Assembly (NCBI GenBank): GCA_946537725.1
Contig: CAMNFZ010000006.1
Location: 1-34,954 of the forward strand
DNA from: an uncultured Methanosphaera sp.
Lineage (GTDB): Archaea > Methanobacteriota > Methanobacteria > Methanobacteriales > Methanobacteriaceae
DNA: 34,954 nucleotides
Direction of reading: 5' to 3'
The number at the start of each line of letters is the position of its first letter. The stretch's first letter is position 1. The translations under genes were made by a program, and so were the position numbers. The notes beneath the pieces are model-generated. The model did no database searches. It saw only the letters and a program-made list of their open reading frames with translations, and was not told the DNA's origin. Shown one piece after another: positions 27,141 through 28,987 of this stretch.

Positions 27141-27983
27141 ATGGAAATAGATAAAAAGTGGTTCGAAGTTTACGAACAACTATATGGAAAAAATTTCAAC
27201 AGATTACTTACCATAGGTAACCTTGAAAAAGGATATGTGAACCACAATATCAAAAATATAGAAGAAGTGAAAGAACTAATAACTGATTCAACAAATACCG
27301 AATATTATATAAGCCTATACAGTTATTTAACCGAAGAAAACATACTAAGATGGGATACAGACAGTCTTGACAAATATGAAAAATTTGCCGAAAAAACATG
27401 TTTACTATTCAGATTCAGACAAAACACCGACATAATACAAGAAGAAATAAGTTCATTAACAGATATCCAGAAATTTATGTTCATCCGAAGGTCAATAAAC
27501 CTTGGATCAAATAAAGAAATAATAGCTCAAGCAAAAAAAGCATATAATTTCTTCAAACAACATTTCAATATCAAAGGAACATTAATATTTAATGGATACA
27601 ATGAATGTTTATTATACTATCCTAAAAAAGAATTACCATTAACCCACCCAAGTTTATCCTATTACAACCTACTTAAACTAATACAAGAAAAATTAGAATT
27701 AACTACCCTAATTTATGAAAACATTGAACCATATGCCCAATTAATACCACTAGTAGGAACACAAAACAAACATTCACGATTATACATACAGTTTTACTAT
27801 CCTGATTTAGACTATGAAGAAATTATTAAAAACAGTCAGGACAAATTCTATAACCCAGAACATGCTCCAAACGTGGAACATTCAGACAAATTACATGACT
27901 TTATAATAGACATAGATAAAGAAATTCATGCCCATGAGGGGAATGCAAAATATAATTTTGACAAGATATGGGATAAAATTTAA
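27141..27983 (+). CDS. Unrecognised protein, possibly a degenerate primase-fold relative
   Basis: 280 residues from the ATG at 27141, preferred because AAAGGGGAG lies just upstream; the frame otherwise opens at a TTG at 27123. No family is recognised with certainty. The order of segments resembles archaeo-eukaryotic primases: a strand (EYYISLYSYL, about 54-63), CLLFRFR near 87-92 where the DxD would be, LIFNGYNECLLYY (about 148-160) in place of SGxxGxHxY, and LIPLVGTQNKHSRLYI (about 201-216) in place of the RLPxTxHxKTG strand. Key acidic residues are missing, so any such protein would be inactive. The C-terminus is acidic. Confidence 0.5.
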   Translation: MEIDKKWFEVYEQLYGKNFNRLLTIGNLEKGYVNHNIKNIEEVKELITDSTNTEYYISLYSYLTEENILRWDTDSLDKYEKFAEKTCLLFRFRQNTDIIQEEISSLTDIQKFMFIRRSINLGSNKEIIAQAKKAYNFFKQHFNIKGTLIFNGYNECLLYYPKKELPLTHPSLSYYNLLKLIQEKLELTTLIYENIEPYAQLIPLVGTQNKHSRLYIQFYYPDLDYEEIIKNSQDKFYNPEHAPNVEHSDKLHDFIIDIDKEIHAHEGNAKYNFDKIWDKI

Positions 27984-28080
27984 TTCAAATCCTCTCCCCT
28001 CAAGAACTTTTTTTTCATAATTCAATTTTAATGTATAGACAAGTATTTATTATATAAAAAATATAATATTAAAATAAGAT
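27984..28080 (+). other. 3' end region and promoter before the structured RNA
   Basis: The stop at 27983 is followed by CCTCTCCCC (27991-27999) and eight T (28008-28015), the recurring terminator pattern. Further on TATATAAAAA (28051-28060) is a good TATA box, placing a start site near 28080, where the structured element begins. Confidence 0.45.
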
Positions 28081-28217
28081 ATAGACTAGGTCTATGGTAA
28101 TTTATAATTCATCACGAATAATGAATTATTATAAAAAGATATGACAATAAAAACGTCATGCGTATCTAAATTTTTTTATAAAAAGCAAATAATGTTTTAT
28201 TTACCATAATAAGACCT
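28081..28217 (+). ncRNA. Candidate structured RNA or rps3ae leader with alternative helices
   Basis: Not a family I recognise. Hairpin H1 is ATAGAC-TAG-GTCTAT (28081-28095). Hairpin H2 is TAATTCAT-(8)-ATGAATTA (28105-28128). Hairpin H3 is ATGAC-(9)-GTCAT (28141-28159), with GAT/ATC outside, followed by seven T (28171-28177). A long-range helix P1 joins AGGTCT/ATGGTAA (28088-28100) to TTACCAT/AGACCT (28201-28217) across a four-base bulge and encloses H2 and H3. P1 and H1 share bases, so they exclude each other. A TATA box 20-30 bases upstream fits a start near 28080. It is either a separate small RNA or a 330-base leader of rps3ae. Confidence 0.45.
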
Positions 28218-28411
28218 GACGGATTCTTTTCAAACTTAATAGATTTAAACATTTTCAATAAAAAAAAATTAGTATGGGAACTAATTCTATTTTAAAAACC
28301 CACAATTTTATAGCAACAAATAAAAGAAAAAATAAGATGATTTGCTGTAAAAAAAAATTTAACTTAATAAAAAAAACAATTAAAAAAAAAACTATAGGAG
28401 ATTATGATATA

Positions 28412-28987
28412 ATGGCAAAAGCAAGAAGACGAGTACGTGACACTTGGAGAGAAAAAACATGGTACGAAATATTAGCACCAGCAGACTTTGAAGAAGCAAG
28501 CTTAGGAACAAGCCCTGCAAGAGAACCAGACATGCTAGTAGGTCGTAAAATAGAAACATCAATGCGTGAAATTACAGGAGATTTCAGCAGACAATACGTA
28601 AAACTATTCTTCGAAGTAGACCACGTAAGTGGAGAAAAAGCATACACAAAATTCACAGGACACAAAGTAACAACCGATTACACCCGTAGTATGATCAGAA
28701 GAGGAACCAGTCGTATAGACACAATAACTGATGCAACTACAAAAGACGGTAAAAAACTAAACGTACACATGTTAGCAATAACCGTAAAAAGAGCAAAATC
28801 ATCACAACAAAAACTCATCAGAGAAACAATGCACAGAATGATTATTGAAAATGCAGCAGAAAAGAACTTAGATGAACTCGTTAAAGAAATCATCACAGGT
28901 AAATTTGCATCAAACATATACCACGAAGCTAAGAAAATTTACCCACTCAAAAAAGTTGAAACTATAAAAACAAAAGTTTTAAACTAG
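28412..28987 (+). CDS. rps3ae: Small ribosomal subunit protein S3Ae (eS1)
   Basis: 191 residues from the ATG at 28412. This start is chosen because AGGAGAT lies just before it and the text then begins MAKARRRVRDTWREKTWYEI, the standard start; the open frame extends 46 codons further up but is only lysine-rich leader sequence. Other marks are EPDMLVGRKIETSMREITGD, YTKFTGHKVTTDYTRSMIRR and DGKKLNVHMLAITVKRAKSS. It is a 30S protein at the mRNA exit, found in archaea and eukaryotes. It is preceded by about 330 bases without a gene, containing a candidate structured RNA. Confidence 0.95.
   Translation: MAKARRRVRDTWREKTWYEILAPADFEEASLGTSPAREPDMLVGRKIETSMREITGDFSRQYVKLFFEVDHVSGEKAYTKFTGHKVTTDYTRSMIRRGTSRIDTITDATTKDGKKLNVHMLAITVKRAKSSQQKLIRETMHRMIIENAAEKNLDELVKEIITGKFASNIYHEAKKIYPLKKVETIKTKVLN

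Follow-up and report, generated by a model that had tools for sequence, protein, structure and literature searches.

To our knowledge, few leaders of archaeal ribosomal-protein mRNAs are known, and those that can be cited belong to uL1 and L7Ae. L7Ae binds a structured 5′ untranslated region (UTR), a k-turn, in its own mRNA and represses translation in Sulfolobus acidocaldarius and others (PMC5539422). The uL1 protein regulates its own mRNA in both Bacteria and Archaea, its site mimicking the rRNA site in sequence and structure, and the bacterial rpsB (uS2) operator, which lies far upstream of the ribosome-binding site, has an essential conserved bulge (PMC10931766). Here, we describe a folded RNA element of approximately 170 bases in front of rps3ae in the genus Methanosphaera, a group of gut methane-producing archaea. 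The rps3ae locus resembles that of L7Ae in that a structured 5′ UTR would precede an archaeal ribosomal-protein gene, with self-binding known for L7Ae and proposed here for S3Ae (eS1). However, the L7Ae site is a k-turn, whereas hairpin P3 of the rps3ae element has a 10-nt one-sided bulge, and the k-turn consensus (tandem G·A pairs after a 3-nt bulge) was not seen in P3 or at the end of helix P1 when the alignment was inspected by eye. With uL1, the locus shares the proposed action of a ribosomal protein on its own mRNA; however, the uL1 site mimics rRNA, as such leaders often but not always do, whereas the element showed no significant sense similarity to 16S rRNA (no match beyond chance against a Methanobrevibacter-like 16S, from another genus). 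With rpsB, it shares a conserved bulge and a position far from the ribosome-binding site, but the protein, domain of life, and structure all differ, and no homology is implied.

The features of the locus in the window, meaning the whole 34,954-nt stretch of DNA analyzed, are as follows.

28040–28078, + strand: promoter region with the TATA-like box TTATATAAAA at 28050–28059 (strongly conserved in the genus alignment; a TATA-like match in each measured locus)
28079–28247, + strand: structured RNA element, as spanned by the covariance model (147.1 bits, E = 4e−31 in the window, whose sequence is itself part of the model; the covariation counts are the independent evidence)
28079–28089, + strand: nearly invariant 5′ tail AUAUAGACUAG, the first part of which is the would-be 5′ strand of hairpin H1 (alignment)
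28087–28100, + strand: P1, 5′ strand (covariation)
28105–28128, + strand: P2 hairpin (covariation; pair 31–47 occurs as C-G, U-A, and A-U)
28129–28181, + strand: P3 hairpin, with a 12-bp lower stem and a 5-bp apical stem (covariation; double changes at 9 of the 12 lower-stem pairs)
28160–28169, + strand: GCGUAUCUAA, an unpaired bulge in the 3′ strand of P3, with invariant GUAUCU (alignment; also present in genome G016)
28182–28198, + strand: P4 hairpin (double changes at one pair, the other pairs nearly invariant)
28201–28218, + strand: P1, 3′ strand (covariation)
28217–28246, + strand: conserved single-stranded 3′ tail UGACGGAUUC...AAUAGAUUU (alignment)
28247–28411, + strand: poorly conserved rest of the putative leader (no TATA-like match exceeding the shuffles)
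28412–28987, + strand: rps3ae, ribosomal protein S3Ae (eS1) (Pfam PF01015, E = 8.5e−70)

A preliminary description of this DNA had proposed a structured RNA on the + strand linked to rps3ae, and both conservation and covariation were indeed present in the relatives. Consensus folding and pair counting on 15 distinct sequences gave a closing helix, P1 (alignment columns 9–22 with 131–148), around the three hairpins P2, P3, and P4. The long-range helix reported earlier was thus recovered (AGGUCUAUGGUAA at 28088–28100 with UUACCAUAAUAAGACCU at 28201–28217; 13 bp, its 3′ strand containing an unpaired stretch), as were the hairpins it encloses, although a third, P4, had been missed. Likewise, the core of the proposed extent (28081–28217) was sound, but the conserved element continues to about 28246, where the 3′ tail contains UGACGGA and AAUA, both unpaired and nearly invariant in the alignment. 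An AGAUA/UAUCU pairing within P3 is possible in the window sequence but is not conserved; in the relatives, UAUCU is part of the 10-nt bulge (GNGUAUCUAA), which is unpaired and nearly invariant. The TATA box reported ahead of the element was also found, TTATATAAAA lying about 20–30 nt ahead of the conserved 5′ end.

The fold comprises 40 pairs, with 95.8% of cells paired and double changes at 19 of the 40 pairs in the 15 distinct sequences. None of 500 shuffled alignments reached the values of the real one on any of five measures, and when the structure was slid along the alignment as a control, pairing fell to 38–51%. Because such shuffles disregard the relatedness of the sequences, pair-class changes were also counted on a tree made from this alignment, giving at least 44 changes over 25 pairs (one-sided wobble changes being partly included). 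G·U pairs (22, one invariant U·G pair excluded) were far commoner than A·C mismatches (4), indicating that the RNA is the + strand. The predicted folding energy of 28075–28225 was −30 kcal/mol, compared with −17.8 ± 3.4 kcal/mol for shuffled sequences (z = −3.6; 1 of 200 shuffles was as good), but the comparison between genomes is far stronger evidence than this energy. Judged by covariation, the element is a real structured RNA throughout the genus, and the comparison establishes both its fold and its strand.

A DNA search found homologues in 18 further genomes of the genus, and a covariance model comprising 15 sequences matched 19 of 20 Methanosphaera genomes, once in each, suggesting that the element is specific to rps3ae. 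The same model had no match in 119 other Methanobacteriaceae genomes, searched with stricter filters, and at the model's sensitivity the element is restricted to Methanosphaera. Its place before rps3ae is constant, with a distance to the start codon of 283–460 nt in 18 measured loci; in L007 and L008, the usual upstream gene is absent and the element and rps3ae are still together. The one genome of the genus that lacked a match in the main search, G016, was not among the model sequences; it has a diverged P3 hairpin at the same place before rps3ae, with different stem letters and an identical GCGUAUCUAA bulge (E = 0.0092 over 2 kb, the filters being switched off). Two genomes have altered or incomplete copies: G009, with an assembly gap of N, and G002, in which approximately 100 nt are inserted in the apical loop of P3 (contig 16, locus L019). 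This insert seems to be base-paired itself (CUACACA...UGUGUAG), and the element is otherwise intact, suggesting that the tip of the loop is unimportant. An apparent second copy in contig 10 of G002 was discarded as a chance AT-rich match.

The preliminary description named no known family with this layout in Methanobacteriales, and nothing in the window matched Rfam 15 at the gathering cut-off, so the element is absent from the Rfam catalogue. A lax Rfam scan of 27900–28500 produced chance matches alone, with scores well under the gathering thresholds. Archaeal RNase P RNA (RF00373) was rejected as a candidate; the element does not match it, and the RNase P RNA was located elsewhere in genome G000 and four relatives. 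In the literature, no paper was found on the element or on S3Ae leaders; PMC8040213 reports five candidate RNAs of archaea found in human microbiomes, and the element might already be listed there.

The element is a conserved structured RNA upstream of a ribosomal-protein gene, and how it relates to that gene was considered from the sequence between them. In a simple consensus scan of very AT-rich DNA, which is supportive rather than decisive, each measured locus had a TATA-like match ahead of the element and none above shuffles between the element and rps3ae. No conserved T-run was seen by eye after the element in the alignment. As neither a consensus-like TATA box nor a conserved T-run was found between element and gene, the element was read as an rps3ae 5′ leader, and it most likely forms the structured 5′ end of an untranslated leader of roughly 330 nt; we infer that element and gene share one transcript. 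The preliminary description had left a leader and a free small RNA side by side, and the linkage to rps3ae and the lack of an intervening TATA-like match favor the former.

On these grounds, the element probably regulates rps3ae in cis. If so, S3Ae itself would be the likelier ligand, by analogy with uS2 in bacteria and with uL1 and L7Ae in archaea. In the proposed model, S3Ae in excess over 16S rRNA would bind the P3 bulge or the junction of its own leader, and bound S3Ae would lower the translation or stability of the rps3ae mRNA; the GUAUCU-containing bulge is the likely recognition site. We place the probability of this full reading at roughly 0.47. No conserved pairing of the element with the rps3ae ribosome-binding site was found; a pairing of the bulge with that site is possible in L001, L015, and L018 and, by eye, broken in others, such as L012. 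The same evidence for a leader would equally suit a ligand other than S3Ae, whether a small molecule, an assembly factor, or a different ribosomal protein; the four-way-junction-like fold, with its invariant bulge, might accommodate one of these. However, the sole linked gene is rps3ae, neither a metabolic gene nor a second copy was found, and no Rfam riboswitch matched, so that a different ligand appears unlikely, if still a serious contender.

A free small RNA under a promoter of its own, encoded beside rps3ae by chance and acting elsewhere, would explain the compact fold with its free conserved tails, the strong promoter directly ahead, and the poor conservation of the spacer before the gene. 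Nevertheless, the scan gave rps3ae no promoter of its own in the form of a TATA-like match exceeding the shuffles, no conserved T-run was visible by eye after the element, and constant linkage to rps3ae would not be expected; we therefore consider it rather improbable.

The spacer itself, which weighs against the leader reading, consists of 120–210 nt of poorly conserved sequence in the measured loci. Many, though not all, Methanosphaera genomes (the window, L002, L004, L006, L010, L016, and L018) may form a second hairpin, ACAGCA...UGCUGU, roughly 60 nt ahead of the start codon of rps3ae; in the window, it can be written as AUAGCAA...UUGCUGU at about 28310–28355, and L018 seems to retain it with a changed pair. 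Just after the element, a short inverted repeat, TTAGTA...TACTAA, is present at 28264–28292 of the window and in L004, L005, L006, and L009; it may represent either a hairpin or a DNA-binding site. Base-pairing between GACGG and UGCUGU further downstream was rejected, as its energy in the alignment fold was near zero and it is broken in several genomes. Upstream of the element, the usual neighbor (286 aa) has no Pfam match; the protein of approximately 280 aa at 27141–27983 of the window, likewise without a Pfam match, is found in most Methanosphaera relatives at 37–68% identity, compared with 82–98% for rps3ae, and is thus fast-evolving.

Returning to the proposed cis-acting leader, the preliminary description had further suggested that it switches between the long-range helix and a hairpin, H1, at the 5′ end. 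H1 was present where described, as a perfect 6-bp stem (AUAGAC at 28081–28086 with GUCUAU at 28090–28095, read directly), so the window sequence allows both helices, and the H1 stem was stable in 10 of 15 sequences. It was energetically unfavorable in L011, L013, L016, L017, and L018 and, by eye, broken in L019, which makes 6 of 16 sequences in which it is unstable or broken, and several of these keep the long-range helix through compensatory change. Moreover, 93% of H1 cells were paired, but shuffling gave the same figure and double changes were lacking, and the bases on its 3′ side covary with their P1 partners and not with H1. In other words, covariation has kept P1 and not H1. H1 may form in the species of the window, but on this comparison, it is not a conserved state, and a switch between the two helices is very improbable.

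It is likewise very improbable that the leader detects 16S rRNA or unassembled 30S subunits through direct base-pairing and so tunes S3Ae output. This idea would draw on the invariant P3 bulge GUAUCUAA, which is exactly complementary (8/8) to UUAGAUAC in the 790 loop of 16S rRNA, in the 16S of another genus. When the 16S was shuffled, 2 of 200 versions contained an equally long match, a figure uncorrected for the several words tried. Against this reading, the adjacent bulge base varies among A, C, and U, and a G, which would extend the pairing, never occurs there. Finally, the apparent RNA might be conserved DNA or coding sequence, either a promoter or a small upstream ORF, as the AT-rich region and an ATG within P3 could suggest (by eye, the frame stays open over some codons in a few of the genomes). 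This reading is refuted, unless the alignment is wrong throughout, by the covarying base pairs, by the excess of G·U over A·C already given, and by P3 and P4 loop lengths that do not vary in threes (3, 4, 5, 7, 8, 9 and 2–14 nt).

Among the sister genera, Methanobrevibacter-like genomes (the name being inferred from kinship) and other Methanobacteriaceae have a different conserved block, AACCUUUAUGGGCGGGUUUUAA..., before rps3ae and right after a TATA box (e.g., L101, L123, L124, L136, and L150), in leaders of roughly 190–490 nt. A DNA search for this block gave some match in 113 of 139 genomes of the family, many of them weak and representing short AT-rich chance matches elsewhere; among 30 loci fetched from this search, rps3ae was placed downstream in most. 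The block is like the Methanosphaera element in preceding the same gene, in its promoter-proximal place, and in its strong sequence conservation. However, the Methanosphaera covariance model did not match the sister-genus leaders, and the predicted pairs of the block are highly conserved with little covariation. No Rfam match was found in the ten loci scanned. A pairing between AACC and a GGUU close to the start codon was considered in these genera and rejected, as its 5′ side is invariant and the other side drifts uncompensated.

The alignment and covariance model of the Methanosphaera element are sufficient to found a new RNA family. Meanwhile, the presence of a different conserved element before rps3ae in many sister genomes suggests that leader-level control of this gene is common in Methanobacteriaceae. 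The eS1 protein is common to archaea and eukaryotes, and its control is thus of wider interest. If the proposed reading is true, the rps3ae leader would make S3Ae/eS1 a further case of an archaeal ribosomal-protein leader and would offer a testable entry into the balance of ribosomal proteins in archaea.
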